A stretch of DNA of 64,000 bases from a virus. The stretch covers positions 20,458-84,457 of the IMG/VR virus record IMGVR_UViG_3300005253_000186; one strand, 5' to 3'. Numbering within the stretch: position 1 is the first letter of the stretch; each line of letters opens with the position of its first letter. A model generated the notes under the pieces. The model was not told the DNA's origin. It worked only from the letters and a program-made list of their open reading frames with translations, and did no database searches. Below, one piece after another: positions 8,079 to 48,343 of this stretch. Both the position numbers and the translations under genes were made by a program.

Positions 8079-8094
8079 GACGCGCTCCTTTCCC

Positions 8095-8313
8095 TTAGAG
8101 ATGATTCAGGATGAAGCGGGCGTGCTCCCCGCGCCACCTGACAACCTTTTTGAGAGGGGCCATCGGGAGATTTGTGAAGTTGGTCTTGATATACTCAAGC
8201 TCATCTCCATCTGCCTGGATCTCATCGACCTGCTCCAGGTTCACACCTGGACGGCCCTCCCTCACGTGCCATTCAAAGATCTTGTCCGAGCGTATGAATT
8301 TGATACATAGCAT
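8095..8313 (-). CDS. hypothetical small protein
   Basis: 72 residues from the ATG after GAGAAGGAGGAAAGCC. Contains CIKFIRSDKIFEWHVREG, probably a small beta/alpha fold. A longer frame upstream is a shadow of the polyasparagine/serine region of the next gene and has no start signal. Confidence 0.7.
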   Translation of the reverse strand: MLCIKFIRSDKIFEWHVREGRPGVNLEQVDEIQADGDELEYIKTNFTNLPMAPLKKVVRWRGEHARFILNHL

Positions 8314-8327
8314 GGCTTTCCTCCTTC

Positions 8328-8627
8328 TCATTTGATATGGACTTGCACCTTGAGTTCGATCTCGGCTAGCGCGGTCGACCTGAATGCAACGAACTTGTTG
8401 TTGCTGTTGCTGTTGCTGTTGCCAAGAGAGAGTCTCGTGATCTCCTTCTTCCACTCTTCTTGATCCTCGGTGACGAGGTACTGGATATATGGATCGTCAT
8501 GAGCTGCGTACCCATGGCCAGGATTTTCCTTGGACCTCTCGTCAGCAGGGATGTGCCTGCTCCTGAACTTCAGGATTGCGTAGTGCGAACCCTTGGGCAT
8601 GTCTTCCGGATTCAGTACCGTTTTCAT
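8328..8627 (-). CDS. hypothetical protein with Asn-Ser repeat
   Basis: 99 residues from the ATG after AAGGAGGTGCACC. A microsatellite-like run of alternating Asn/Ser codons (about 8400-8424) encodes a flexible NSNSNSNN loop between two structured halves. The tract could vary in length between relatives. Overlaps the upstream gene by 4 bases. Confidence 0.75.
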   Translation of the reverse strand: MKTVLNPEDMPKGSHYAILKFRSRHIPADERSKENPGHGYAAHDDPYIQYLVTEDQEEWKKEITRLSLGNSNSNSNNKFVAFRSTALAEIELKVQVHIK

Positions 8628-8908
8628 GGTGCACCTCCTTTTTTCAGGTAAGCCTTCATGGTTATGGCGATGCCGGACGTGAAGCCGGCTATCCAGACAT
8701 GCGCGCCTTCTATATTGGTTTCTGGAGTCCACTCGTCCTGATCCCCTATCTTGAAGCTGTATCTGACGCCAACCTTCTTCAAGGTGATCCTAGGAAGCCT
8801 TGCTGCGACCATGACAACGTTGGCCCCAGAAATATATTCTTCCAGCGTCCTGGATTTGGGGTCTCCAGGGAACAGGGACCCGATCATCTCATCCATGAAG
8901 TCGCTCAT
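8624..8908 (-). CDS. hypothetical protein
   Basis: 94 residues after GGAGGCCAC; first gene of a transcript starting at the GGTATAAG motif 35 bases upstream. Includes a hydrophobic beta segment and GAHVWIAGFTSGIAITM. No known family. Confidence 0.75.
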   Translation of the reverse strand: MSDFMDEMIGSLFPGDPKSRTLEEYISGANVVMVAARLPRITLKKVGVRYSFKIGDQDEWTPETNIEGAHVWIAGFTSGIAITMKAYLKKGGAP

Positions 8909-8942
8909 GTGGCCTCCGATCTAAGATAATGTCTTCACTCTT

Positions 8943-8950
8943 CTTATACC
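8943..8950 (-). promoter_or_regulatory. GGTATAAG promoter motif
   Basis: Lies directly after an intrinsic terminator and 35 bases upstream of the gene at 8908. Confidence 0.75.
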
Positions 8951-8951
8951 T

Positions 8952-8990
8952 AAAAAAGAGGGCCGAGACCTCCGAAGAAGTCCCGGCCTG
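8952..8990 (-). terminator. intrinsic terminator
   Basis: GGCCGGGACTTC and GAGGTCTCGGCC form a long stem with a TTCGG loop, followed by CTCTTTTTT on the minus strand, downstream of tRNA-Ser(GCT). Confidence 0.9.
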
Positions 8991-9009
8991 AACATAACTG
9001 TAGAAGAAA

Positions 9010-9101
9010 TGGCAGAGGACAAGAGAATCGAACTCTCAGACCGTATTTCAGGCCAATTGCTTAGCAAGCAATCCCAGCGAACCAGTATCTGGCTATCCTC
9101 T
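9010..9101 (-). tRNA. tRNA-Ser(GCT)
   Basis: Class II tRNA with long variable arm. Acceptor AGAGGAT pairs with GTCCTCT; anticodon loop TTGCTAA; encoded CCA. Reads AGC/AGT. Followed by a terminator. Confidence 0.95.
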
Positions 9102-9106
9102 CTTCA

Positions 9107-9433
9107 TTATCTCCAGGTCCTGAGCGGGTAAAGCGCGTCGATCTTTTTGCGAGCTCTTCTGTGCGACTTGAAGCGTTCGACCTCGGCAGGCTTCTGGCCG
9201 TGCTGAAGGAGAAGCTTTCCCCCGCCTCTCGACATAAGACCTCCTCTCGAGTACTCAATCGGCGTCTTGGCGACCCAGTCATCCCCCTCCTTGTAGATCA
9301 GGGCGCCATCGAATCTCACATACATGTTCTTGCTGATGCGCTCCCAGTCTTTCCTGGGCTTGTGACCGACCTTCTTTTCGAGTAGAGACTTCCTACCTCC
9401 TCTTGCCCATGGCGGCATAGATAATGAAATCAT
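9107..9433 (-). CDS. hypothetical basic protein
   Basis: 108 residues after AGGGAGGTAAT. Basic, with a segment KNMYVRFDGALIYKEGDDWV that looks like a beta-sandwich strand pair. Ends 5 bases before tRNA-Ser(GCT), so it is co-transcribed with it. Unknown. Confidence 0.7.
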   Translation of the reverse strand: MISLSMPPWARGGRKSLLEKKVGHKPRKDWERISKNMYVRFDGALIYKEGDDWVAKTPIEYSRGGLMSRGGGKLLLQHGQKPAEVERFKSHRRARKKIDALYPLRTWR

Positions 9434-9434
9434 A

Positions 9435-9878
9435 TTACCTCCCTGTTGAACCGAACCCCGCGTCCCCCCTGGACTCGTTCTCGGGCTTATCTTCGACCTG
9501 TGCGAGGAAAATCTTGTCGAGCTTGAACGGCACCATCTGGGCGATCCTGTCTCCGACCTTATACCGGAAAGGCTGGGTGCCGAAGTTAAGCAGAATCACC
9601 CTGATCTCACCAGTGTAATCCTGGTCAACAGTTCCAGGCGCATTCATGACGAACACGCCTTGCTTGGCAGCAAGTCCGCTCCTGGACCTGATCTGGACCT
9701 CAAACCCAGACTCTATGCCAAGATGAATTCCGGTCGGCACAACTCCCCATGACATGGGGCCAATCGCGCCGCCTTCGCATGCGTACAGGTCAAAACCTGA
9801 ATCCGTCGGATTCGACTTGGTCGGCATCTGCGCATCCTCGTGCGCGAGGTATATCTGCAACGTTGCCGGGTGTTCCAT
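9435..9878 (-). CDS. dut: dUTP diphosphatase
   Basis: 147 residues, full length for a trimeric dUTPase. All five motifs are present: I SGFDLYA (27-33), II RSRSGLA (64-70), III GTVDQDYTGEI (82-92), IV RIAQMV (111-116), V RGDAGFGSTGR (137-147, the P-loop-like tail that closes on the nucleotide). It hydrolyses dUTP to dUMP and PPi, keeping uracil out of phage DNA and supplying dUMP for dTTP. The start ATG follows CAGGAGAAACAG. It lies downstream of tRNA-Ser(GGA). Confidence 0.97.
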   Translation of the reverse strand: MEHPATLQIYLAHEDAQMPTKSNPTDSGFDLYACEGGAIGPMSWGVVPTGIHLGIESGFEVQIRSRSGLAAKQGVFVMNAPGTVDQDYTGEIRVILLNFGTQPFRYKVGDRIAQMVPFKLDKIFLAQVEDKPENESRGDAGFGSTGR

Positions 9879-16504: not shown

Positions 16505-16957
16505 TTATTCGACCGTGATTGAAAAGACACAAGGGTCGCTTTCATTCCCTTGGCTGTCTATTAAAATGACCGTGACAGAAGGGTCGGCGGCGTGTAGCCA
16601 TGGATCATAGCCATTCTGCACCCAAATTAAATCGCCAGAGTCAATATCAACAGATGGCCAGTTGTCGAACATTGGCACAGTAACGTTCACTATAAATTCA
16701 GTACCACCTTGAATATTTGTGGCCCATCCAGGAATAATATAAACTGGGCTAGTTGCGCTCTGTGCGACTGTAATATCGCCTCCGCAGGTGAATGCTGGAG
16801 TTCCTGGTTCCGGAGTTGGCTCCGGTTCGGGGGCTGGGCCTGGGGCTGAAGGTTTTTGATGTGAATGACTATCCCACGGAGGATGTGCTAAGGGATATTT
16901 CTCACAACCAGTGAGAAGCACAAATCCGATTAACATCGTTAGCGTTTTCATTCTCAT
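16505..16957 (-). CDS. putative lipoprotein with Pro/Glu linker
   Basis: 150 residues. Signal peptide with lipobox LTGC (Cys at residue 18) after MKTLTMLIGFVL, then a PEPEPTPEP spacer and a beta-sandwich-like domain with a Cys pair (FTCGG and DPCVFSITV). Likely lipidated and exposed at the host envelope; phage lipoproteins of this kind can act in superinfection exclusion or host-surface modification (inference). More AT-rich than its neighbours, suggesting recent acquisition. Confidence 0.75.
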   Translation of the reverse strand: MRMKTLTMLIGFVLLTGCEKYPLAHPPWDSHSHQKPSAPGPAPEPEPTPEPGTPAFTCGGDITVAQSATSPVYIIPGWATNIQGGTEFIVNVTVPMFDNWPSVDIDSGDLIWVQNGYDPWLHAADPSVTVILIDSQGNESDPCVFSITVE

Positions 16958-17012
16958 CTTTTTTCCTTAGGCTGGTGGCCAGGCTAATCTAGGGACGGCT
17001 TCGCCACACCCG

Positions 17013-17273
17013 CTACTTATCGTCTTCATCGTCCAGTGCCGCAAATAGTTCTGCCCATGGACCGTCTGCCGGCAGGATCATGATTATCGGGACTTCTGAT
17101 TCACGAAGTGTGCCGTCCGGATCGATACCCTTTGCCTCCGATGTTACCATTTCTTGGGCAACGACCGTGTCTGTGTAAAGGAACTGGTCGTCTGAATCGT
17201 GCCCGCATGGCACGCTGACCTCAAGATCCTGGTCGTACTTTGACAGTAAGCTGATAAGAGCTTTGACTTTCAT
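17013..17273 (-). CDS. hypothetical protein (acidic)
   Basis: 86 residues. N-terminus MKVKALISLLSKYDQDLEV resembles small phage/bacterial proteins that begin KVxxLIxxLxxxxxDxEV, with an acidic tail. GGTATAAG lies 20 bases upstream, and CCAGGAGG precedes the ATG. Confidence 0.75.
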   Translation of the reverse strand: MKVKALISLLSKYDQDLEVSVPCGHDSDDQFLYTDTVVAQEMVTSEAKGIDPDGTLRESEVPIIMILPADGPWAELFAALDDEDDK

Positions 17274-17292
17274 GTGAAATCCTCCTGGTGAT

Positions 17293-17300
17293 CTTATACC
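17293..17300 (-). promoter_or_regulatory. GGTATAAG promoter motif
   Basis: In the 34-base gap between tRNA-Ile(TAT) and the gene at 17273. Confidence 0.65.
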
Positions 17301-17307
17301 AGGAACA

Positions 17308-17383
17308 TGGTCCGGCAGGGTGGAATCGAACCACCGACCTGTCGCTTATAAGACGACCGCTCTTACCCCTGAGCTACTGCCGG
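17308..17383 (-). tRNA. tRNA-Ile(TAT)
   Basis: Acceptor CCGGCAG/CTGCCGG; stem GTCGT/GCGAC with loop CTTATAA; CCA encoded. Reads ATA. The upstream CDS ends inside its D-loop. Confidence 0.9.
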
Positions 17384-17788
17384 ATCCTTTCGAGCCCAAT
17401 GTTGCCACGCCTTGCCATTTAGATCGTCATCCTGAGATGCGATCATCAAGTATCCGACAACATAACTGATAAATGTGTCTGGTTCAATGTACGTCCCCTG
17501 GAATCTTCTTGATGGATATGGGCAGTTGCCCGCACCCACAGGGTGCCCGTCCCAGAGGATATTGGTCCCGCATTCTGGACAATATCGACTGGCGCTAGGG
17601 AGAAAAGGTGTCTTCCCATAGACCAAGTCGCCGGAAGCTCCCTCTAGGCCCCCGTTCCCATTTGGCCTAATGTCTTCAGTGACGATGCATCTTGGCCGGA
17701 GGCATTTTGGACAGAGGACGATGGACCCGGCCGGGATGGAGTTCCTTTTACCATGCTGCAAACCGGCTAGGCTAACCGTCTTGATCAC
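17363..17788 (-). CDS. zinc-binding hypothetical protein
   Basis: 141 residues from a GTG that overlaps the upstream stop (GGGGTGA). Zinc pairs CPKC and CPEC are about 50 residues apart. The C-terminus (ARKDPAVAQG) is encoded by the first 21 bases of tRNA-Ile(TAT). An ATG further upstream (17836) would overlap the previous gene by 52 bases and lacks a ribosome site. Confidence 0.65.
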   Translation of the reverse strand: MIKTVSLAGLQHGKRNSIPAGSIVLCPKCLRPRCIVTEDIRPNGNGGLEGASGDLVYGKTPFLPSASRYCPECGTNILWDGHPVGAGNCPYPSRRFQGTYIEPDTFISYVVGYLMIASQDDDLNGKAWQHWARKDPAVAQG

Positions 17789-33711: not shown

Positions 33712-34071
33712 TGGTGGAGGTGCCCGGATTCGAACCGGGGTCTTGAAATGCATCCAAATGCGCGTTTACGTGCGTAGAAGGTTCTGATCGCCTTCGGCCT
33801 TTGGTCAACAGATTCCAGCAAGATCGCCTAGGCCTACACGGCGAATTATGTCTCAATCACCTGAACGCCGAACGCAGATGATCCAGTCGTAGTTCGTCCG
33901 ATCTCCAGCTACGACGACAACCTCGCCGGGATCGGGACTACCTATTCCTAGGCAGCCATGCGGTAGCCGTTGTCGGCACCTAATTTGTCATCGGATTTTT
34001 ACGTGGCCTTCCGATGAACCACGGCACGAAGCAACATTCTTCCTCATCCAATCGATTCCTATATCACCCCC
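33712..34071 (-). ncRNA. ssrA: tmRNA (transfer-messenger RNA), tag ADNGYRMAA
   Basis: 360 bases. 5' end GGGGGTG pairs with CACCTCC before the encoded A-CCA. The D-loop stretch TAGGAATCGATTGGATG and the T-arm CCGG-TTCGAAT-CCGG are tmRNA-like. PK1 is clear: CGTGG/CCACG with TCATCGGA/TCCGATGA. After ACAAATTAGGT the tag frame reads GCC GAC AAC GGC TAC CGC ATG GCT GCC TAG (33948-33977). It rescues stalled ribosomes and adds a degradation tag ending in Ala-Ala. Other pseudoknot arms (GTCGTAG/CTACGAC) follow. Phage-borne tmRNAs are rare. Confidence 0.95.
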
Positions 34072-38771: not shown

Positions 38772-39413
38772 TTATGCTCGTATCTCTACGAGCTCGAAAG
38801 CTCCGAACTTGCCGCCCCTTTCGGGGCGCCACTCGCCAATGCCGACAGAGCGACCGGCCCTGTCGACTATTGATGCGAGGTCATCCGGCCGCAGAAGATC
38901 TTGGTCAATATCTGCCTTGACGACCATCTCCCAGCCTTTCGGAAAAATGGCTCTGGTCTTCTCGATCATCTTTCTTCCGCTACCGCGTGTGGCGATGTTA
39001 ACTTCCGCCGTATACGGCTTCGGAACAACCTTCGTGACTGGGATAACATCTTCGGGAACATGAACCGCTGCACGAATCAAGTCTCGAAGATCCCAGTCTT
39101 TCACCTCATGGGCCATTCTAGTGCATGCCAGCTTCACGTAGTATCCCGGCATGCCGTACTTCCCATGCTTTCTTTCACTCCACTTCTCCCGACCATCAAC
39201 AGGGCAGAGCGCCTGCTTGAACTGCTCGTCGGGAGTCATCTTCCCGAACACCTTCGGGTCGATTCGGCAGTTACGGATTTCTCCGTGTTTTGTCCGCCAG
39301 TTGCTGCACAGAAGATCTGAGATCCCTCGGATGACGATCTCGATGCTGGTCATCACCATCTTCGGGATATAGACTCTTCCGCCTTGTTGCATCGTTGCCT
39401 GTTCCATGATCAT
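38772..39413 (-). CDS. paralogue B of the VGIGEWRPE pair
   Basis: 213 residues. Shares with the gene at 39495 the blocks REKW...KHGKYGMPGYYVKLAC, the strand-rich FPKGWEMVVKADID, and IVDRAGRSVGIGEWRPERGG-KFGAFE at the C-terminus. The family is common in large phages but uncharacterised; the last block may bind a ligand or partner. A 12-bp hairpin separates the two genes. Confidence 0.75.
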   Translation of the reverse strand: MIMEQATMQQGGRVYIPKMVMTSIEIVIRGISDLLCSNWRTKHGEIRNCRIDPKVFGKMTPDEQFKQALCPVDGREKWSERKHGKYGMPGYYVKLACTRMAHEVKDWDLRDLIRAAVHVPEDVIPVTKVVPKPYTAEVNIATRGSGRKMIEKTRAIFPKGWEMVVKADIDQDLLRPDDLASIVDRAGRSVGIGEWRPERGGKFGAFELVEIRA

Positions 39414-39427
39414 CCCTCCAGAGAAAG

Positions 39428-39471
39428 CGGGAGGAGAGGATTCCCGCGGGGGCGAGTTAGTCCTCTCCTCC
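39428..39471 (-). terminator. terminator-like hairpin between paralogues
   Basis: GGGAGGAGAGGA pairs perfectly with TCCTCTCCTCCC; followed by GCTTTCTC, a weak U-tract. Might terminate partially or stabilise the upstream message. Confidence 0.55.
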
Positions 39472-39494
39472 CAGACAGCACGGAAGAACGCCAG

Positions 39495-40265
39495 CTACTT
39501 CCGTCCGCTGCCCTTTTTGTAGATGATGGGGAAGGCCTCATTCCGGGAGAACAATCTCTTCTTGGGGGCCTTCGTATGCTTCATGGAGACGGGCTCGAAC
39601 CGGCCCATCATCCCATTGCAGGACGGCCTCCAGTCCCCGACACCGACACTCATCCCGGCGCGATATAGAAGATTGAACACCGAGATCTCGTCGATGATCG
39701 ACTTGTCGATGCTCATTACGATGTTCGCCTCCCATTCTGCGGGGAAGCACCCGCGGAAGCGAATGTCCGCGCTCTTGCTTGACGGGAGACGGACCACGTC
39801 TTGCCGATTGTAGGGCGTCATGTTCTCGATCCCCACCACATCGTCTTCCACGAAGAAGCAACCGCGAGCATACGTCATGTTGAGCCCTTCAACGTATCTG
39901 GCAGCTCCGACGCATGCCTGCTTGAAGGCGTGGCCGGCAAGACCGAACTTTCCGGGCTTGTTATCCTTCCACTTCTCCCGCCCGGGCACGACGTAGAGGG
40001 ACTCCATGTACTCCTGGATGGGTTCCCGCAATCCTCTCTTCGGACGAGAGACGTTCATCTGGTTGTCGAGGATTTTCCTTTGGGCCGCAGCCCCGAACCG
40101 ATGCGTGATCAAGGGCGACAGGCCGATGATGTGGATGATGTAGTAAACCCAATCCGGCTTGATGATCTCGATCGTCTTGTTCTCGGCATCCTTGCCGGTC
40201 TTCTTTGCGACCTTCTTGGTCGTCTTCTTTTTCGTGCTCTTCTTTCTCGCTGTCTGTACAGCCAT
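39495..40265 (-). CDS. paralogue A of the VGVGDWRP pair, with lysine tail
   Basis: 256 residues. The first ~28 residues (ARKKSTKKKTTKKVAKKTGK) form an H1-like basic tail absent from paralogue B. The conserved body contains HRFGAAAQ, REKWKDNKPGKFGLAGHAFK and AGMSVGVGDWRPSCNGMMG-RFEP. It lies immediately beside the CCAGCC array, with a 240-base leader that includes the first array units if the promoter at 40510 is used. DNA binding by the tail is inferred. Confidence 0.78.
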   Translation of the reverse strand: MAVQTARKKSTKKKTTKKVAKKTGKDAENKTIEIIKPDWVYYIIHIIGLSPLITHRFGAAAQRKILDNQMNVSRPKRGLREPIQEYMESLYVVPGREKWKDNKPGKFGLAGHAFKQACVGAARYVEGLNMTYARGCFFVEDDVVGIENMTPYNRQDVVRLPSSKSADIRFRGCFPAEWEANIVMSIDKSIIDEISVFNLLYRAGMSVGVGDWRPSCNGMMGRFEPVSMKHTKAPKKRLFSRNEAFPIIYKKGSGRK

Positions 40266-40379
40266 GTCAAAGACTCCTTCTGGGGTGTGGGACCTTTCGG
40301 CCTCCGGTGATTCATAACTTTATAGATTCTCCGAGTCCTCCGCCTCGGTAATTTGTGTTGGTGAGCAAAATGAACTGAT

Positions 40380-42147
40380 CCAGCCGTAACCTAGCATACC
40401 TGATCGCGCCAAGACGGGCGATGACCTGCCTCCCAGCCACGCCCCGCCGAAGATGGCTTTGACAGCCACCTATGTAAGAGAGGATGTGGGCCCAGAGTCC
40501 TCTGAATTTCTTATACCGTATTTCCAGCCCGGACAAAACGTGCCCTACCGTTCCACACCGCTCCGTGCCAAGCCTACCAGCCTTAACCCGCCTGAACGTG
40601 CGCGACCCTCCCCGACGAGACTTGCACTCCAGCCGTACCCTAGCCCGCCAATTCATAACGCGCAGCAACAGGCTCCGCCCAACAGCGACCTGCCTTCCAG
40701 CCATGCCCCGACGAACATAACGGATCCCCGACCCGACCTGGCGAGCCGAGCCTAGCCGTCCAGCCATACCCTGCCACAACGAAACGGACCTTTCCAGACA
40801 CCTCCGTGCCATCCAGCCGTAACCCGCCGAACCTACCCTAGCCTAACCGATCCGTGCCACAACGTGCCGAACCATACCATCCAGCCGCACCATGCAATTC
40901 CGGACCCAGCAATGCCACTCCGGGCAGAGCCGAGCCTTCCAGCCGTACCTCTACGGGACGTGCCTAGCACTGCCGATCAGCACCATCCACGCCTTCCAGC
41001 CTCAACACAACGTCCCAGGACTAACCTCGCCAAGACCAACCTTCCAGCCTCGCTTCGCTAGCCTTGACGAGCCGTACCGGTCAGCGACGAGCCCGTCCCA
41101 AACTTACCCTCCAGCCGCAACCCACAATAACAGGCCAAGGCCCGACAGGCGGCACCTGACCGCACCTACCAGCCATAACGCGCAGCGCCTAGCCCAACGG
41201 CACCCTGACGCACTTCGCCAGTCCTCCCAGCCAAACCCGAACAGAATAAAACGGATCATACAGAACACTTCCGTGCCGTGCCGTGCAGAACCTAGCCCTC
41301 CAGCCATACCGCACCGAGCCTGTCCGGGTCACGCGGGAACAAGACACACGATGCCATCCAGCCGTACAGGAACACGCCGTGCCGAGCGCGAACCAAACGC
41401 AACCTACGCGGACCAACCACCCAGCCGTAACATGACCCTCGGCAACCAACAGTGACGTGACCAACCCGAACGCACCCAACCATCCAGCCTAGACACAACC
41501 GATCTCGACTTTCCAAGCCAAGCCGAGCCTGACCCTCCAGCCACAACTAGACAAAACAATCCGCCCAAACGGCAACCCCGCCTAATCACGCCATCCAGCC
41601 ATGAGATAACGAGCGCGGCCATGCCGGAACGTGCCCGGACGAACCTAGCCCAACCGGTCCGAACCTTCCAGCCCCACATGAACCCACAGGGCCTAGCCCC
41701 GACGCGCCAGATCCAGACGAGCCTAGACACACCGACCAGCCGTAACTTACCATGCCATTGCGCGCCTAACGCAACGGGCCTCATCCTGCCATCCAGCCAC
41801 ACCCGGATAAATCCGGACAAACCTAACCCGGAGCCGCCCTTCCAACCAGCCGTACCGGGACAAAACAATCCGGGACGGGACGAGCCTTGCCTATCCACGC
41901 CCCTCCAGCCATAACCCGCTCAGACGAACCCGGACTCGCATGACCCTCCTCGCCTCTCCGTCCAGCCGTGCCAAACAACGCCGCAACACAACCCAGCACA
42001 ACACGCAAGGCCTGGCCTGGCCTACCAGCCGTAACATCCCCTCCATGACAGACGGTGACGTACCCATCCAGGGCGCACCATGCCATCTCCAGCCATACCC
42101 CGCCGTACACTGACGAACCCAAACGTTCCAGAACGTGCCAGCCAGCC
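40380..42147. repeat. array of about 31 CCAGCC-centred units
   Basis: About 31 copies of a degenerate motif, in plus sense [GC]CC-[TA]-T-CCAGCC-[GA]-TA-A-CC, spaced irregularly at about 45-75 bases with non-repeated C/A-rich intervening sequence. The whole region is strand-asymmetric (C-rich plus strand, G/T-rich minus strand) and has no consistent reading frame. Both flanking genes encode proteins with H1-like lysine tails. Candidate protein-binding array (partition/centromere-like, origin or packaging-related) or a repeated RNA. Confidence 0.75.
40510..40517 (-). promoter_or_regulatory. GGTATAAG promoter motif inside the array
   Basis: CGGTATAAGAAATTC on the minus strand, 245 bases upstream of the gene at 40265. 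The only such motif in the array. Confidence 0.5.
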
Positions 42148-42849
42148 TTAATCGCCACCCGCTGAGTCGCGGTGACGAGAAAGATAGATCTTCCTCGGGC
42201 GCTTCTGGTGCTTCCGCTCCTTGTTGATGCCGGACAGGATCGAATCGCACTTGCCCCTGATGGTATTGCACAGCTTCGCGAGAACCTTCATGTACTGATA
42301 CTTATCGGCGATATGACGGAGATCATTCGCGGCGTTAATTAGCGCCTGCTGGCGCATGTCCGGATCAGACATGACCTCGAAGGTCGGAAAGTAACGCCGA
42401 TCCGTCTGACGATCTCCGGTCTGGATGGAGATCATAATCGGTGACTCGATCATCTGCCCTCTTGCGTCCGTGTCGATCACGATGATCGAACGGCAGAGAT
42501 ACTTGGCCTGTTCAATGCGCCACTTGTCCGCTGCGACCTTGTTGACCCAATCAAAATAAGGGTTGAGCGGAGAGGATCCTTGGGACGCCGCGCTAACGAT
42601 GTTCTCCGGCGTGCAGTCAACGCCACTGGATGCCAGGTCATACAGGGCGGCGCCATACGTCTTGGCCTCCACCTTGTTCAGGCGTGCTCCTGGACCAGGC
42701 TTGAAATCTCGATTATCAATGTGGACGGATCCGTTGACCCATACGACTTCGTGCGGACCCTTGGCCTTCGGTGGCTTTCTGGCCGATTTCCTCTTAGAGG
42801 ACTTCTTCTTGTCTTTCGCCTTCTTTACTGTCTTCTTCTTCTTTGCCAA
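42148..42849 (-). CDS. lysine-tail protein flanking the array
   Basis: 233 residues. The first 32 residues are almost pure Lys/Ser/Arg/Pro/Ala, as in histone H1; the body is a mixed fold with SPIMISIQTGDRQTDRRYFPTF and a helical C-terminus, ending Lys/Arg/His-rich (KERKHQKRPRKI). GGTATAAG is 48 bases upstream. No terminator separates it from the CCAGCC array. Probably DNA-binding. Confidence 0.78.
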   Translation of the reverse strand: MAKKKKTVKKAKDKKKSSKRKSARKPPKAKGPHEVVWVNGSVHIDNRDFKPGPGARLNKVEAKTYGAALYDLASSGVDCTPENIVSAASQGSSPLNPYFDWVNKVAADKWRIEQAKYLCRSIIVIDTDARGQMIESPIMISIQTGDRQTDRRYFPTFEVMSDPDMRQQALINAANDLRHIADKYQYMKVLAKLCNTIRGKCDSILSGINKERKHQKRPRKIYLSRHRDSAGGD

Positions 42850-42896
42850 CTTCGGTCTCCTGTTCTGAGGGGATCAAAAGAAAACGCTACAGTCTT

Positions 42897-42904
42897 CTTA
42901 TACC
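42897..42904 (-). promoter_or_regulatory. GGTATAAG promoter motif
   Basis: CCGGTATAAGAAGACTG, nearly identical to the 4322 context (AAGACT), 48 bases before the lysine-tail gene. Confidence 0.72.
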
Positions 42905-42908
42905 GGAA

Positions 42909-43256
42909 TCAGGTAGCGCCAATCGCCTGCTTCATTGCGTAGGCCATTTTAATGAACACGCCCTCGAACATCTTCTCGATGATCTTGTCGGCGTGCTCAG
43001 CAACAACTTCCTTGAACAGACCAGCAGGATCTCCCCAGGTGGATCCCCAGTAATCCATATCGGAAACCTGAGTCCGGATCATCTCCTTGATGCGCTTGTC
43101 GAGCGCCTCTTTGATCCAATTCTCAAGTTCGCGTTTTCTGCTCCCGGTGACGAGCTCGTAGATCTGGCCCCGGACCATCTTGTCCCATTCTTCTTCGGGA
43201 ATTGCCTCTGTGATATAGTGGGCGACCTTCTGCGCGACGATCGCCTGGATATTCAT
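42909..43256 (-). CDS. hypothetical helical protein
   Basis: 115 residues from the ATG after GGGTGAG, two bases past the Nudix stop. Long helices with charged faces, Trp-rich middle (DYWGSTWGD). Unknown. Confidence 0.7.
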   Translation of the reverse strand: MNIQAIVAQKVAHYITEAIPEEEWDKMVRGQIYELVTGSRKRELENWIKEALDKRIKEMIRTQVSDMDYWGSTWGDPAGLFKEVVAEHADKIIEKMFEGVFIKMAYAMKQAIGAT

Positions 43257-43257
43257 C

Positions 43258-43746
43258 TCACCCGCGTCCATCCTTTGCCTTTCCGATCTCCGCGTATTCG
43301 CCTGGGTACCAGGGATACTCGGTTGGATCTCTATGGTAGACGCCGCCCGTTGCCGTTTGGTCGAACATGGCATACGCCTTGAGCCTAGGAAGGGCATCTG
43401 AAGATATTTCCTCCTTGAGCTCCCGGGCTGTCACCCATCTGTATTCGGTGTGCTCGGAGTTTATCGTAACCTCTGGGTCGATGACCATCGTAGCCTTGAA
43501 AATAACGAAGACGAATGTCCCCCCGTTATCCGTCCCGTTCGAGAACACCATCGCGATCTTCGTCGGTCGGATCTCGAACCCGGTCTCCTCAAGAACCTCT
43601 CTTGCTGCTGCCTGCTCCAGGTTTTCGGGTGGTTCAACCTTGCCTCCAGGAAAGTTCCACTTCCCGTTATCCGACCTCCTGAGGACCAGGACTCTGCGAT
43701 CGCGCATTCTTTGGATTACTGTCGATACGGCTACTTTAGGCTCCAT
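43258..43746 (-). CDS. Nudix hydrolase
   Basis: 162 residues. Nudix box GGKVEPPENLEQAAAREVLE-ETG (35-57) fits G-x5-E-x7-R-E-x-x-E-E-x-G. Substrate-binding region KWNFPGG. MutT-like hydrolysis of a nucleoside diphosphate linked to another group. In a genome that also carries a NADAR protein, an ADP-ribose or NAD-related substrate is one possibility; others are oxidised dNTPs or RNA caps. Confidence 0.93.
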   Translation of the reverse strand: MEPKVAVSTVIQRMRDRRVLVLRRSDNGKWNFPGGKVEPPENLEQAAAREVLEETGFEIRPTKIAMVFSNGTDNGGTFVFVIFKATMVIDPEVTINSEHTEYRWVTARELKEEISSDALPRLKAYAMFDQTATGGVYHRDPTEYPWYPGEYAEIGKAKDGRG

Positions 43747-44053
43747 GTTTGGTCTTCCCTTTGCTAGTGGTCACGCGGTTGAACCTGATTGCCACTTTCG
43801 CATCGTCTGGGGAATGCACTTCGCAGTCATGAAGCTGGCACCCTATCACCTTGCCCTTATCCATAATATGGACAATGCAGTCCTCAAGATTACAGTCCTT
43901 GAGGCGCGACTTCTCCCGAACCTCGACTACGCAGTCACGGAACGAACACGACTTTACATCGCAATTGTCAAAGATCGCAATGCGTCCAGACCTGAATGCC
44001 TGCGAGAAAAGGCTTGTACGAACGTTCACTGTTGGGCGATGGCTAGGCCTCAT
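43736..44053 (-). CDS. pentapeptide-like beta-helix protein
   Basis: 105 residues. From residue 25 to 80 a repeat of about 10 residues places Cys at regular steps (FDNCDV, CSFRDCVV, LKDCNLEDCIV, VIGCQLHDCEV), as in right-handed beta-helix or pentapeptide-repeat proteins. Such proteins can mimic DNA; too short to say. Basic ends. Confidence 0.7.
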   Translation of the reverse strand: MRPSHRPTVNVRTSLFSQAFRSGRIAIFDNCDVKSCSFRDCVVEVREKSRLKDCNLEDCIVHIMDKGKVIGCQLHDCEVHSPDDAKVAIRFNRVTTSKGKTKHGA

Positions 44054-44462
44054 CTGTCTTCTCCTCGTCTACGGGCCGAATTTTCTCGACTTCTCTGAAT
44101 CGACCTTTCCCGAGCGCCTCCCCGATGAGCGCGCCGATGTGTTCGTCGTAATATCCGGACTCGACCTGATCCACAGCCTCTTTCCTGGTTTTGACACCTT
44201 CGACGATGAAACGGATGCCGCACTTGATTTCAACCTCGTATTTGTCTCTGTCCTGGTCCGGAACGTCTTCGGTAATATTGGCATGGATACTTGAGATCAC
44301 GTGATGCATGAGCGACGTGTGCGTCCGAAGCGAAGAGACTGCGCCACCCATGTGGTCAGGGAAATCCGCCATGTTGCTCTTCAACCTGCTCATCAATATG
44401 CCTCCGATGTTTCGGTAGGCCCTGATGAGATCGTCTATTTCTTTTGTTTCAGTTTTGTCCAT
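44043..44462 (-). CDS. hypothetical protein
   Basis: 139 residues from the ATG after TTTGGAGAATCTG; helical N-terminus, then a His-containing stretch (LMHHVISSIHANI), acidic C-terminus. Start overlaps the upstream stop. Confidence 0.7.
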   Translation of the reverse strand: MDKTETKEIDDLIRAYRNIGGILMSRLKSNMADFPDHMGGAVSSLRTHTSLMHHVISSIHANITEDVPDQDRDKYEVEIKCGIRFIVEGVKTRKEAVDQVESGYYDEHIGALIGEALGKGRFREVEKIRPVDEEKTDEA

Positions 44463-44815
44463 CAGATTCTCCAAATAGAGTGAAGCGCCTGCATCAGGCT
44501 GATCGTCCCGGGAAACGGGACAAAGAACATTATTAGAGTGCCGTATGCAAATACTTCGTGGAAGCACTCTGGGCAAAGGTTCCTCCTGTTGTGTCGATGC
44601 AGCGGTCCGGGCGCGATAAGGCAGAATTTATCAATGCACCTTGTCCACTGAAAGTCCGGCATGAAAACTTCCATCGAGTTAAAGTTGCAAACCGAATAGT
44701 AGACGGGAGCTCTGCACATCCGGCACAAGATTATGGAATTTGCAGGGACAGGAGGCCCCTTCAGGACAATCTTTCCCATCAGGGACATTTTCGTGTCCGC
44801 CTCCAAAATGCTCAT
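44462..44815 (-). CDS. zinc-binding protein with hydrophobic tail
   Basis: 117 residues. CRMC and CPEC pairs plus CIDKFC; the last 30 residues (AYGTLIMFFVPFPGTISLM) are hydrophobic and may insert in a membrane. Overlaps both neighbours by 4 bases or less. Confidence 0.7.
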   Translation of the reverse strand: MSILEADTKMSLMGKIVLKGPPVPANSIILCRMCRAPVYYSVCNFNSMEVFMPDFQWTRCIDKFCLIAPGPLHRHNRRNLCPECFHEVFAYGTLIMFFVPFPGTISLMQALHSIWRI

Positions 44816-45483
44816 TCTTCCTCCTCGTCCTCCTCGTCCTCGTCGATCTTAAGCAGGCTCTCGTCAAACGACCCGTCCTGTTCGACCTTGATGACGCCGT
44901 TCTTCCAGCCCTCGACGAGCGGGTAGAAATCCTCCTCCTTACAGATTTCAAACCCTTTCTTCTCGACTTCCTCCGCGAGCTCGCTGGTGATTTGGTAGAC
45001 GGGCTTGCCGAGAGCTCCATCAATATCGTTCACGAGGATCTTGGCAACATCTTGAAGGGATGCCTTGTTCGGCGCCGCGGGCGACGGCTGCGGTTGAGAT
45101 CCCGGTGCTGGCGCCGTCTGGGCCCCGCCTTGCTGTTGCGCCTGCTGCTGTGTCTGCTGCTGTGCGGCTTGGTTGCTCTGGACGTTTGCGACCGCCTCGT
45201 CGAGCTCTTCCTGTGTGGACCGTCCGAGATATACGTCGGCCTGGATGTTGTAGATGCTGTAGCACATCTCGAACTCGCCTTCTGTCAGGACTACTTCTCC
45301 AGATAGTTTCTGGCCGGACTTGAGAATTTCCATCGTAACGCCTGGGTACTGCTTCACGGCATAGGAGTGGCTGCTTCCGCCCTCGATGATCGTAAACGTG
45401 TCCCTGTGCAGCATCCCCTCGGACGGATGCCCGCGGTTCTCAGGTTTGTACTTTTCAGAATCGAGTTTATCGAGAAGTGACAT
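44812..45483 (-). CDS. hypothetical protein with Gln-rich linker and acidic tail
   Basis: 223 residues: folded N-terminal domain (to ~95), a Q/A/P linker (QQQTQQQAQQQ), a second helical/beta domain, and a C-terminal run of Asp/Glu like those of ssDNA-binding proteins. Size and tail recall SSB-type proteins, but no OB-fold motif could be verified. GGTATAAG 28 bases upstream. Confidence 0.7.
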   Translation of the reverse strand: MSLLDKLDSEKYKPENRGHPSEGMLHRDTFTIIEGGSSHSYAVKQYPGVTMEILKSGQKLSGEVVLTEGEFEMCYSIYNIQADVYLGRSTQEELDEAVANVQSNQAAQQQTQQQAQQQGGAQTAPAPGSQPQPSPAAPNKASLQDVAKILVNDIDGALGKPVYQITSELAEEVEKKGFEICKEEDFYPLVEGWKNGVIKVEQDGSFDESLLKIDEDEEDEEEE

Positions 45484-45510
45484 GAGTAGTCTCCACCGGT
45501 AGGTAGTTCC

Positions 45511-45518
45511 CTTATACC
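45511..45518 (-). promoter_or_regulatory. GGTATAAG promoter motif
   Basis: 28 bases before the gene at 45483; the next upstream gene ends at 45520. Confidence 0.68.
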
Positions 45519-45519
45519 A

Positions 45520-45903
45520 TCATTGGACTGTTTCTATTTGGTCCCAATTGCCGACGATCGCTCTCGCCAGCTCTTCGTCCGCATCAAGCGCGGCAATAAT
45601 TACACAGATCGCGACGGACTCCTGCGCAACATCCATGGACAGCAACTTCGTAACGGTCACGTAGACGCCCGAGGGCAAGTAGATCCTTCTCCTCCCATAT
45701 TTATCAACGAGAATGTGGAATGTATGACCGCAACATGGGCAGATACCAGACTTCTCGATTTGATGCCTATGCTCGTTCCAATAAACCCTGGTCTTGAGAT
45801 GTTCGTGATCTTTCCACTTCTTGATGTTCAATCGATACTTGATTGCGAAGTAGATCCACGGTACAAATAGTATCACCGCGAAAACTACAACTGTTCCGTA
45901 CAT
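45520..45903 (-). CDS. membrane-anchored zinc protein
   Basis: 127 residues from the ATG after AAGGAGGCACTCT. N-terminal transmembrane helix (residues 3-22), then a soluble part with CPCCGHTF and a hydrophobic C-terminal stretch (VAICVIIAALDADEEL). Confidence 0.7.
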   Translation of the reverse strand: MYGTVVVFAVILFVPWIYFAIKYRLNIKKWKDHEHLKTRVYWNEHRHQIEKSGICPCCGHTFHILVDKYGRRRIYLPSGVYVTVTKLLSMDVAQESVAICVIIAALDADEELARAIVGNWDQIETVQ

Positions 45904-45914
45904 AGAGTGCCTCC

Positions 45915-46298
45915 TTGCCAAGAAAACGACCAGATCCCAGAGCCAGCATAATCGACGGCTCTCAAGAGATACCCTTCGAGGTTGGGTATCGTCTGGACCT
46001 GCTACAGTCTATGCGAGATTACTTCGCCGAGATTTACGGCAATAAGGAACTGTTTTTTGACGTTGAGACCGTAGAGGACGAAACGCTGTGCGAATGGTGC
46101 TCCCGTCACACAGAATTTTACAACGAAGCATGCCGGCTTGTCAATGACTGTGCAGTCAGGGGACACTTTTTCGATCCTAGAGAGATTGCAAAGCTCAAGA
46201 ACTATCACCTGGAAAAGGCGCAGATGATTAGCGCCGTCCTAGTGGGGCGGGCAAATAGGAGGGCTAAAGGCACGGGCGCCGAAGCGCCCGTGCAATAG
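45915..46298 (+). CDS. isolated plus-strand hypothetical protein
   Basis: 127 residues if the TTG at 45915 is used, 95 from the ATG at residue 33; neither has a good ribosome site. Contains LCEWCSRHTEFYNEACRL, a possible zinc-binding Cys/His set. It ends in a perfect 10-bp hairpin (GCACGGGCGC/GCGCCCGTGC). The only plus-strand gene before 48.4 kb; the alternative is that the region is non-coding. Confidence 0.55.
   Translation: MPRKRPDPRASIIDGSQEIPFEVGYRLDLLQSMRDYFAEIYGNKELFFDVETVEDETLCEWCSRHTEFYNEACRLVNDCAVRGHFFDPREIAKLKNYHLEKAQMISAVLVGRANRRAKGTGAEAPVQ
46269..46292. terminator. bidirectional-type hairpin
   Basis: GCACGGGCGC-CGAA-GCGCCCGTGC at the end of the lone plus-strand gene. No clear U-run on either strand, so termination is uncertain. 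Confidence 0.4.
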
Positions 46299-46391
46299 CA
46301 GACAATCACCTATAGTCGGGCTCCGCCAGATTGCCCAACGGGCTGGGGAGGGGATGTGTGCTGTGGGGGTGACGGTCGCATGGTTTCCTTT

Positions 46392-47384
46392 CTACGGCTG
46401 GGGGGCCGCGATCAACTTCTGTACTTCCTTGGGGAGTTGTCCAGTCACCTGTGCGATCTTCGGAACACGCTCCAGGCACTTCTTGATGGACGACGGCAGG
46501 TGTTCTGACCACATGCTGTCGATCTCCTGTTCGCGCTGAAGATCAAGATCTCGAAGTAAGGTCAGCCGCTGGGCTTCGAGATTTGCTTGGGCCTCCGTGA
46601 ATCTAGCGCGCACATTGGCCTCGTGCTGCTCTTCGACTTCAACCAGCTCCTTTGTGAGGCTGGCCTCTGCGTCCTTGTGCGCCCAGTCCTCTTTGTCGAT
46701 GACCCCGACCTCGACTTTGAGATCGTTCGTTTTCTCGGAGGATTCCGCCTTGATTTTGGCGATCTTTTCGTTGGCCCTTCCCACGCTCGATTCTATCCTG
46801 GAGCTGAGGTCGACCTTCTTTCTCTCGATCGCCAACCGCTTTTCGCGGATCTCGGCCAAGCTCTCCTCGATCTCGCCCATCTTTTTTACCACGGGCCCGT
46901 TGCTGCTTTTGATGGCTTCGAGGATCTGCTGATTCAAGTGGACTTCTCCGGCCGCGAATCGCTTCTCAATGTCTCTGCGCAGGGACATGAATCTGCTATC
47001 GAGAAGCCGCTCTCCCAACTTGATTGTGTCTTTACTGTGCTTGAGATGGCCGTTGCTGTGCGGAGCCTTTACTGGTGTTCCTGGAAGCTCTGCTGGCTCG
47101 GGAAGATTGGGGGTGCCGATCTCGTGGTAATAGATCAGGATCACCTCCCAAAACATCTGCAACACATCGGGCATGGCCTTCCGCCACGTTTTGCGGAGAT
47201 CCTCAACCTTCTTCACGATAGGGTTCAACCAGGGATTCTCGCTCCGCTTTAGGCTCCAGAAGCTTCCTCGGCCACGGTACAGCTCCTGGACGGTATTTTC
47301 CTCCATGCCGTCGGATACCAAGGTGCCCCAGATTCCCTGGAGCCAATCGTAGATCTGCTGTTTTCTTCCTGTCATCTTTGCCAC
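46392..47384 (-). CDS. large coiled-coil protein
   Basis: 330 residues from a GTG after GGAGGATATTTCT. N-terminal globular part to ~100 (Trp-rich), a short proline-rich linker, then a coiled coil of about 170 residues (RRDIEKRF ... LRDLDLQREQEIDSMW). Could be a scaffold, filament or partitioning-like protein. Unknown family. Confidence 0.78.
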   Translation of the reverse strand: MAKMTGRKQQIYDWLQGIWGTLVSDGMEENTVQELYRGRGSFWSLKRSENPWLNPIVKKVEDLRKTWRKAMPDVLQMFWEVILIYYHEIGTPNLPEPAELPGTPVKAPHSNGHLKHSKDTIKLGERLLDSRFMSLRRDIEKRFAAGEVHLNQQILEAIKSSNGPVVKKMGEIEESLAEIREKRLAIERKKVDLSSRIESSVGRANEKIAKIKAESSEKTNDLKVEVGVIDKEDWAHKDAEASLTKELVEVEEQHEANVRARFTEAQANLEAQRLTLLRDLDLQREQEIDSMWSEHLPSSIKKCLERVPKIAQVTGQLPKEVQKLIAAPQP

Positions 47385-47478
47385 AGAAATATCCTCCAGG
47401 TTATCGGCTTGTGTTCGAGTTAGAAATGTCCCGGACAAGGGGATCTCGCGAGCTGTCCTCCTTATCCGGGACGAAGAC

Positions 47479-48048
47479 TTATTGGCCTACCTCGACCGCG
47501 GCTTCGACTGGTGCTGGCTCCTCGGTCTCGTGGGGGGAAGCATCTTCTACTTTAATCCCGACACTCCGAAGCTTCTCGGCAAGTGTGCGTGTGTCGGGCA
47601 GAAGCTCTTCCTTCTCGGCCTGTTCCAGATCTTCCTCCTCTTCTTCGGGACAAAGGAAGGCATTGAGCTTCAGGGACGCGATGAGTTCTGCCCCTGACGT
47701 GAAGAGACGATCCAGGTCCTTGAACGTGGTGAGATCTTGAATCGGCCTGCCAACTAGGTTTTTATGCTCCGCCTCAAATGTCTCGGCAGCATCCTGTAGC
47801 AGTTGCAGCAAGCCAGCGTCGAAGGTCACACTCGTCATTAGGGGGGTTGGATCGAGATATTCCGGTGAGTTACCGGGATTTTTGTCTGGTGCCCTTTTTT
47901 TCTTGTTCCGCTTGTCCAGGCACTTCTGGCACCTAGCGGGCAAAAATAGACCTTTTTTAACGTACCACTGGACGTGTTCAGCCTGGATACTGAACAAGGT
48001 CTTGCAATCACGGCATTTCTTTACCGCCTCTCTCTCGCCTGCTGTCAC
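47479..48048 (-). CDS. zinc-ribbon (zf-trcl-like) protein
   Basis: 189 residues from a GTG after AAAAGGAGAGAAG. Probable zinc-ribbon CRDCKTLFS ... FLPARCQKCLDKRNKKK matching the small treble-clef pattern (C-x2-C then C-x2-C with a basic tail). Helical middle, acidic end. First gene of the minus-strand half next to the divergent region; promoter 52 bases upstream. Confidence 0.75.
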   Translation of the reverse strand: MTAGEREAVKKCRDCKTLFSIQAEHVQWYVKKGLFLPARCQKCLDKRNKKKRAPDKNPGNSPEYLDPTPLMTSVTFDAGLLQLLQDAAETFEAEHKNLVGRPIQDLTTFKDLDRLFTSGAELIASLKLNAFLCPEEEEEDLEQAEKEELLPDTRTLAEKLRSVGIKVEDASPHETEEPAPVEAAVEVGQ

Positions 48049-48099
48049 CTTCTCTCCTTTTGGGCTTGGGCCGATATGAATAACCGTCTCTTCAATTAT

Positions 48100-48107
48100 C
48101 TTATACC
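48100..48107 (-). promoter_or_regulatory. GGTATAAG promoter motif
   Basis: 52 bases upstream of the GTG start at 48048; argues for that start rather than the ATG at 48156. Confidence 0.7.
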
Positions 48108-48343
48108 CAAAAACTTGCCCCATAATTTTCGATGATGATTCGAAATATTTGAGCATTCGGTGTTAGGGTAAAGCCATAAGTCTTGATTGGCAAAGGATTT
48201 TCCGTATCCCCTTATAGCAACTAGGGTTGCGATGGAGTAAGAAGTGTAAGTAGGGTAAATAGTGGAAGTGTCTTTACCTGCTTGTAAGTACAAATGTAGT
48301 GCACATAAATATGGTGATGGTAAGTAGTTATACAAAAAAGCCA

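Follow-up and report, generated by a model that had tools for sequence, protein, structure and literature searches.

Among the systems described so far, VIPR (Viral Interference Programmable Repeat) is the closest to the locus reported here. According to the main text and legends of the preprint that describes it, VIPR consists of a phage RAMP protein, Vipr, which has an RRM core and a glycine-rich loop, and of RNAs built from 9-16 GGY/NN units (PMC13142463). These RNAs read DNA through their NN pairs, passing over one base from each pair to the next, and together with Vipr they silence genes of competing phages; accessory genes, vap1-6, are also part of VIPR (PMC13142463). Staggered arrays and "a related consensus" are found among its array types (figs S17 and S18), Escherichia phage SUSP1 and a Pseudomonas fulva prophage are examples of type II, and the targets in the main text are phages, satellites and prophages, methyltransferases not being named there (PMC13142463). 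VIPR, only recently described, has the look of a CRISPR ancestor. Within the library searched, the full VIPR name occurs in no other paper.

We show here that the window, i.e. the whole stretch of 64,000 nt analysed out of the 84,457-base IMG/VR virus record IMGVR_UViG_3300005253_000186, contains a VIPR locus as judged by the features tested, namely protein, array, strand and accessory gene, without the type II tail. It is very probably a VIPR locus of an uncultured tailed phage, and its guides, at least one of which fits an hsdM motif, are presumably active. The mechanism used in our explanation is that of the preprint, as given in its main text (PMC13142463). The parts of the locus are the following.

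38772..39413, minus strand: vipr paralogue a (213 aa), phrog_4652, aligned with paralogue b and 36 Vipr proteins of other phages
39495..40265, minus strand: vipr paralogue b (256 aa), phrog_4652, with a lysine-rich N-terminal tail and a Cas7/Csm3-like RAMP fold
40380..42147, minus strand: vrRNA-type guide array built from [GKY]NN pentamers in about 28 canonical cycles (48-73 nt each)
40439..40529, minus strand: non-canonical cycle of 91 nt that breaks the pentamer grammar
42148..42849, minus strand: probable vipr accessory protein (vap-like, 233 aa), phrog_15946, with a lysine-rich N-terminal tail

With type II VIPR, as far as the main text of the preprint describes it, the locus shares the Vipr protein, an accessory gene and guide units of the GGY/NN form that lie on the strand of vipr; sequence matches suggest that it may also share the reading of DNA with 1-nt skips. 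However, type II loci have few RNAs with a structured 3' tail, while the window has a contiguous series of about 28 guides with short GGCT-GGAW junctions; the invariable structured 3' tail behind the repeat units of type II vrRNAs was not found in the window array, where only a junction of 8-13 nt recurs. Two vipr paralogues, many GTY units and a guide fitting a host restriction gene likewise set the window apart from type II as described there. The staggered and related-consensus types, known here by main text and legends, are probably of the same broad kind as the window locus. Class 1 CRISPR-Cas, with its Cas7/Csm3 backbone, is similar in the RAMP fold of the protein and in the RNA-guide array beside it, but the window lacks near-identical direct repeats and its code is gapped. 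No tandem repeats of score >=40 were found in the window array, in which only the CCAGCC hexamer recurs exactly, and in this strict sense the array is not CRISPR, as the first-pass annotation had stated. TIGR-Tas, in the part of its description used here, also joins a tandem guide array to an RNA-guided DNA-targeting protein and has phages among its hosts, whereas the window has RAMP neighbours and an array of 5-nt units (PMC12045711).

Array and pentamer grammar

The first-pass annotation had noticed a recurrent CCAGCC core in a non-coding region. A direct count gives 31 exact copies on the plus strand between 40380 and 42147, the first two of them overlapping, whereas 1000 dinucleotide-preserving shuffles of the same region average 3.2 and never exceed 10; the recurrence is real, and sequence of equal composition yields the motif far more rarely. 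The spacing, described in that annotation as irregular at 45-75 bases, turned out to be quantised. Twenty of the 30 intervals equal 3 modulo 5 (48, 53, 58, 63, 68, 73; binomial p 4e-8), and the CC autocorrelation at lags 5, 10 and 15 has a mean of 1.74, compared to at most 1.30 across 1000 shuffles. The array is rightly not regarded as iterons. Its supposed unique spacers consist of degenerate pentamers that follow one another in register, with the form NNRMC on the plus strand and [GKY]NN on the minus strand.

We observed that the CCAGCC core is the meeting point of two short units, on the minus strand GGCT-GGAW with GKTAY usually before it, and that this junction recurs about every 58 nt, with about 9-14 units in most cycles. 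The triplets are fixed and the NN positions near random. Among the triplets of the window array 45% are GGY and 26% GTY, versus 73% and 13% across 80 Vipr loci. The variable dinucleotides hold the information, and CCAGCC is only a junction between guides. The functional strand is the minus strand, on which the flanking genes also lie. The first base of the array directly follows the stop codon of 42148-42849, and at its other end 114 bases separate it from 39495-40265, which lies downstream. A repeated RNA had been among the earlier candidates and is retained, but read from the minus strand. No second stretch of such design was found elsewhere in the virus record. The non-canonical cycle at 40439-40529 (minus strand) contains TATAAG and possible hairpins, and might act as promoter or leader of the vipr genes.

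Several other readings of the array were rejected. The array was correctly called non-coding, and coding or pentapeptide-repeat DNA was discarded, with no persisting frame and no extra lag-15 signal. Structured RNA was not favoured either, the mean folding z ranging from -0.5 to +0.8 over six array strands, no better than shuffles, and the arrays held no ribozymes or known RNA families. A G-quadruplex or i-motif was rejected because the array of one close relative (G002, see below) has no regular GG or CC steps.

Flanking genes and other Vipr loci

Along the minus strand the vap-like gene is followed by the guide array and this by the two vipr paralogues. Both protein families, phrog_4652 and phrog_15946, are without a named function, and none of the three genes (38772-39413, 39495-40265, 42148-42849) has a Pfam match. 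A profile of five phrog_4652 relatives matched PDB 36pp ("SUSP1 Vipr protein") over nearly the whole chain (E 5e-21), and a G-x-G-x-WRP stretch is invariant in the 38 rows of the Vipr alignment. The model of paralogue b that was built from this 38-row alignment (pLDDT 87, pTM 0.77) resembles type VII Cas7 and Csm3 subunits (Foldseek E 5.8e-7), and its comparison with Csm3 gave a VIA Z of 13.0 and an rmsd of 3.4 over 163 residues; 36pp itself is absent from the listed rows of the fold searches. When the ten proteins of 38772-48156 were scanned against Pfam and PHROGs, no Cas families were found by sequence, and the RAMP fold of paralogue b appears by structure only. In 58 of 80 Vipr loci, tblastn finds a relative of the protein of 42148-42849, in most cases not far from vipr. 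The gene 42148-42849 is therefore probably the accessory gene of vipr, for which we infer the name vap. The first-pass annotation had pointed to the flanking lysine-tailed proteins, and these are a Vipr and its probable accessory protein. Further genes were noted near the locus, a NUDIX hydrolase (43258-43746, minus strand) and a small protein with a weak pentapeptide-repeat/beta-helix match below the curated cut-off (43736-44053, minus strand). In the early arm, the minus strand of the window also carries a tmRNA gene (33712-34071) and, from 11417 to 37067, a series of 29 tRNA genes.

The link between vipr and array was surveyed by searching IMG/VR with the Vipr alignment alone, which returned at least 462 relatives, of which 80 loci were kept. 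Arrays were detected with a fixed GGY/NN model of at least 8 units, and 78 loci of phages picked by their capsid protein served as control. On the vipr strand 78 of the 80 Vipr loci carry a GGY/NN array, compared to 2 of 80 on the opposite strand and 0 of 78 control loci on either strand. It is these two controls that we rely on; reversed sequences were positive at 73 of 80 loci, but this control is not valid because reversal retains GG every 5 bases. In SUSP1, the same detector found four segments of 15-17 units, which is the number of vrRNAs reported in the preprint (PMC13142463). Contiguous arrays whose junctions are short predominate among the 80 phrog_4652 loci, and in several loci a junction unit of 4 nt (GGCA or GGCC, for example) occurs singly every 10-12 units or so. 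In an alternative reading of its GGCT-GGAW junctions, the window array has 27 three-base units. Its 351 units are the highest count, the others having at most 328, some of them clipped by the 6 kb flanks.

The candidate that the earlier annotation put first, an array of DNA bound by protein, has to be weighed here. It would have the lysine-tailed neighbours bind double-stranded DNA for segregation (partition), replication or packaging, the pentamers being half-turn contacts, and it is in line with the length of the array and its place close to where the early arm gives way to the structural arm, with the lysine tails and with relatives at a similar position. However, the neighbours belong to the Cas7 type of RAMP, which binds crRNA, cycles of 5k+3 do not keep the cores on one helix face, near-random dinucleotides alternate with fixed triplets, and the design is common to nearly all Vipr loci. 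The evidence does not favour such an array, which we regard as very improbable, and we continue with the VIPR reading. Points that count against the VIPR reading itself are the lack of a structured 3' tail, the lower share of GGY units in the window, the failure to find a firm target for the other guides tried, and the two nearest relatives, whose arrays have this geometry but which show no clear Vipr.

Guide code and the hsdM motif

In the VIPR reading, each cycle of 48-73 nt in the minus-strand array RNA would yield one short guide on cutting or loading, about 28 in all, with GGCT-GGAW and the preceding GKTAY as the constant junction between guides. Each Vipr subunit, a Cas7-like RAMP, would grip a single conserved GKY triplet and expose the two bases that follow it, so that the row of NN pairs would read double-stranded DNA while leaving one base unpaired from each pair to the next. 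The bound Vipr-guide complex would then silence the target gene. We infer transcription, processing, binding and repression at the window locus. As the skip may coincide with the wobble position of codons, a single guide could fit a protein motif in many species.

We decoded 930 guide blocks as codon positions 1 and 2 in both directions, including five trial phases each for the two nearest relatives of the window, G001 and G002. A few of these blocks spell known motifs, which shuffled guides do not. A guide of one locus (L180) reads LSLL[DE]AGG[IM], a Vipr motif, and with 1-nt skips fits the vipr gene of L202 at 19/20 bases, while a guide of L228 fits the vipr genes of L192 and L193 at 18/18 bases and that of L191 at 17/18; as read off the target sequences, the skip falls on the wobble base. 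Single matches of that size are not decisive since the best match of the backward control at skip 1 reached 20/22 bases, and the weight lies in two guides both matching vipr genes. A match of a window guide (L112, 18/18 at skip 0) was discarded, being by our own estimate about at chance level over all windows tried. In another uncultured phage, a guide of the L236 array (8089-9822) reads [IM]L[IM][DE][IM]ATGTG[NK]T, which we take to be like the Walker A motif of restriction enzymes or helicases; a second anti-restriction guide is possible there.

That the dinucleotides carry readable target information also bears on a reading without guides. TRAP is a ring protein that reads RNA triplets with 2-nt spacers, and an RNA decoy or attenuator read by a protein of this type would account for the triplet and two-base spacing as well as for RNA structure no stronger than in shuffles. 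With readable dinucleotides and no TRAP-like neighbour among the proteins scanned, we give this reading hardly any credence and keep to guides, three of which are referred to below.

41852..41910, minus strand: unit 6, the NN pairs of which spell GKKGGEFYTP (HsdM motif) antisense with 1-nt skips
41306..41363, minus strand: unit 15, antisense A[DE][CW]GTGKT[IM], like Walker A of phage helicases, a lead only
41233..41305, minus strand: unit 16, antisense [NK]R[SR][NK]G[IM][DE]LVVV[DE]YL, like DnaB Walker B, a lead only

The NN pairs of unit 6, GG GT TA AA TC CC CC TT TT CC, give G[NK][NK]GG[DE][FL]YTP when read antisense with skips, and thus spell in gapped form the motif GKKGGEFYTP of type I methyltransferases (HsdM). 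The full 20-base guide fits hsdM exactly. Bacterial and archaeal genome contigs contained at least 119 exact matches in at least 118 loci. Among the 119 matches listed, the peptide is GKKGGEFYTP in 116, GKNGGEFYTP in 2 and GKKGGDFYTP in 1, and 116 of the 119 lie within open frames of at least 200 codons. All five proteins tested from these matches are N6_Mtase proteins, four of them also having HsdM_N. The valine that the junction pair AC would add is in none of the 119 matches listed, and AC is therefore assigned to the junction; the first pair (GG) stands in a junction-adjacent unit, so that the guide proper may comprise nine pairs. Many matches must exist because the hsdM motif is conserved, and the weight lies in the guide being equal to the motif.

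It could be that the locus is VIPR but the hsdM reading coincidental, the true targets being competing phages or satellites. This would agree with the main text of the preprint, where the targets are phages, satellites and prophages and methyltransferases go unnamed (PMC13142463), and with the lack of a firm target for those other guides that were tried. Against it, the hsdM matches, at least 119 and all to the same motif, face an expectation by our own arithmetic of about 0.5 in 257 Gb (both strands). In 369 genomes of one class unit 6 matched 21 times in 20 genomes and the backward pattern 0 times, and when the guide order was shuffled 20 times the mean number of GG[DE]FYTP matches among the 930 blocks was 0.0, compared to 1 in the real order. 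We consider a coincidence unlikely. With hsdM as the presumed real target of unit 6, the phage probably has a guide aimed at type I restriction-modification, because at least one guide fits GKKGGEFYTP; other guides of the array may aim at other phages.

For these other guides we have leads and null results. The core of unit 16, GI[DE]LVVV[DE]YL, had one exact viral match in a DnaB_C gene, with four pairs beyond the core fitting poorly, and at up to 2 mismatches in 200 genomes it gave 27 matches compared to 12 control matches. Unit 15 had 8 exact viral matches: 3 in phage helicases, 4 sharing the peptide AEWGTGNT, which is unfit for Walker A, and 1 in a very short frame. Unit 9 (VYS[CW]LAGYPG[HQ]G) matched 0 times in both searches, and unit 10 had 1 match against 1 control match, the real one outside any convincing gene. 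In 2.3 to 3.2 Mb of phage DNA no convincing target of the window guides was found. In an unmasked search the top matches were the arrays themselves (skip 3), and arrays were masked in later searches; the enlarged target search included loci picked by hsdM, DnaB and Walker A patterns, and matches to those are not independent.

Related arrays and meaning

The nearest records by capsid protein, G001 (83%) and G002 (76%), also carry non-coding arrays at a similar position, as the first-pass annotation's proposed comparison with relatives brought out; they lie about 15-19 kb from the capsid gene, compared to 14-16 kb in the window. The G001 array (L095 2764-5665) has GYGAC cores and CC-R-NN (or NCC-NN) pentamers and is followed on the same strand by a hairpin and a T-run, whereas the G002 array (L098 19976 to L099 1412) has AGCRGC cores and SAY-NN pentamers. 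Intervals of 5k+3 make up 32 of 51 in G001 and 20 of 32 in G002. Around 4800-5000 of L095, two adjacent units of G001 are near-identical and nearby units are variants, which suggests a recent unit duplication. No guides common to the window, G001 and G002 arrays exceeded shuffled order. In G001, the protein of 16912-17697 is a weak Vipr candidate (E 2.6e-4 by phrog_4652, hhalign probability 2.4); it was not picked up by the 5-row or 38-row Vipr profiles, and its single-sequence model (pLDDT 36) is uninformative. Searches of G002 with phrog_4652 and the 5-row and 38-row profiles found no Vipr. For these reasons both arrays are relatives in geometry only and are not assigned to VIPR. Among 23 more distant records (G003-G025), no arrays were seen in the parts covered, i.e. 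the whole of G003, a large part of G004 and usually 20-60 kb of the others; a strong period-2.5/5 signal in G004 (L110 14581-14761) resembles a coding pentapeptide-repeat gene more than such an array.

A further step would be that the guide is written against a protein motif, as a broad weapon against type I restriction, and that the fixed triplet can evolve, with CCR or SAY in place of GGY. One 20-base guide would then fit the hsdM of many bacterial and archaeal lineages, and the protein partner in G001 and G002 was presumably re-tuned or replaced. We regard this as a serious possibility that falls somewhat short of being probable.

The analysis places a long VIPR array in an uncultured phage and provides an independent check, at the level of sequence, of the 1-nt skip and wobble rule. 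If the hsdM reading is true, phages may turn VIPR against host restriction-modification as well as against rival phages, using guides suited to an entire protein family. To judge by the arrays of G001 and G002, the geometry can be kept when the fixed part of the code changes, and a changeable triplet would help to clarify in what way RNA is read by a RAMP filament and how recognition of the CRISPR type originated.
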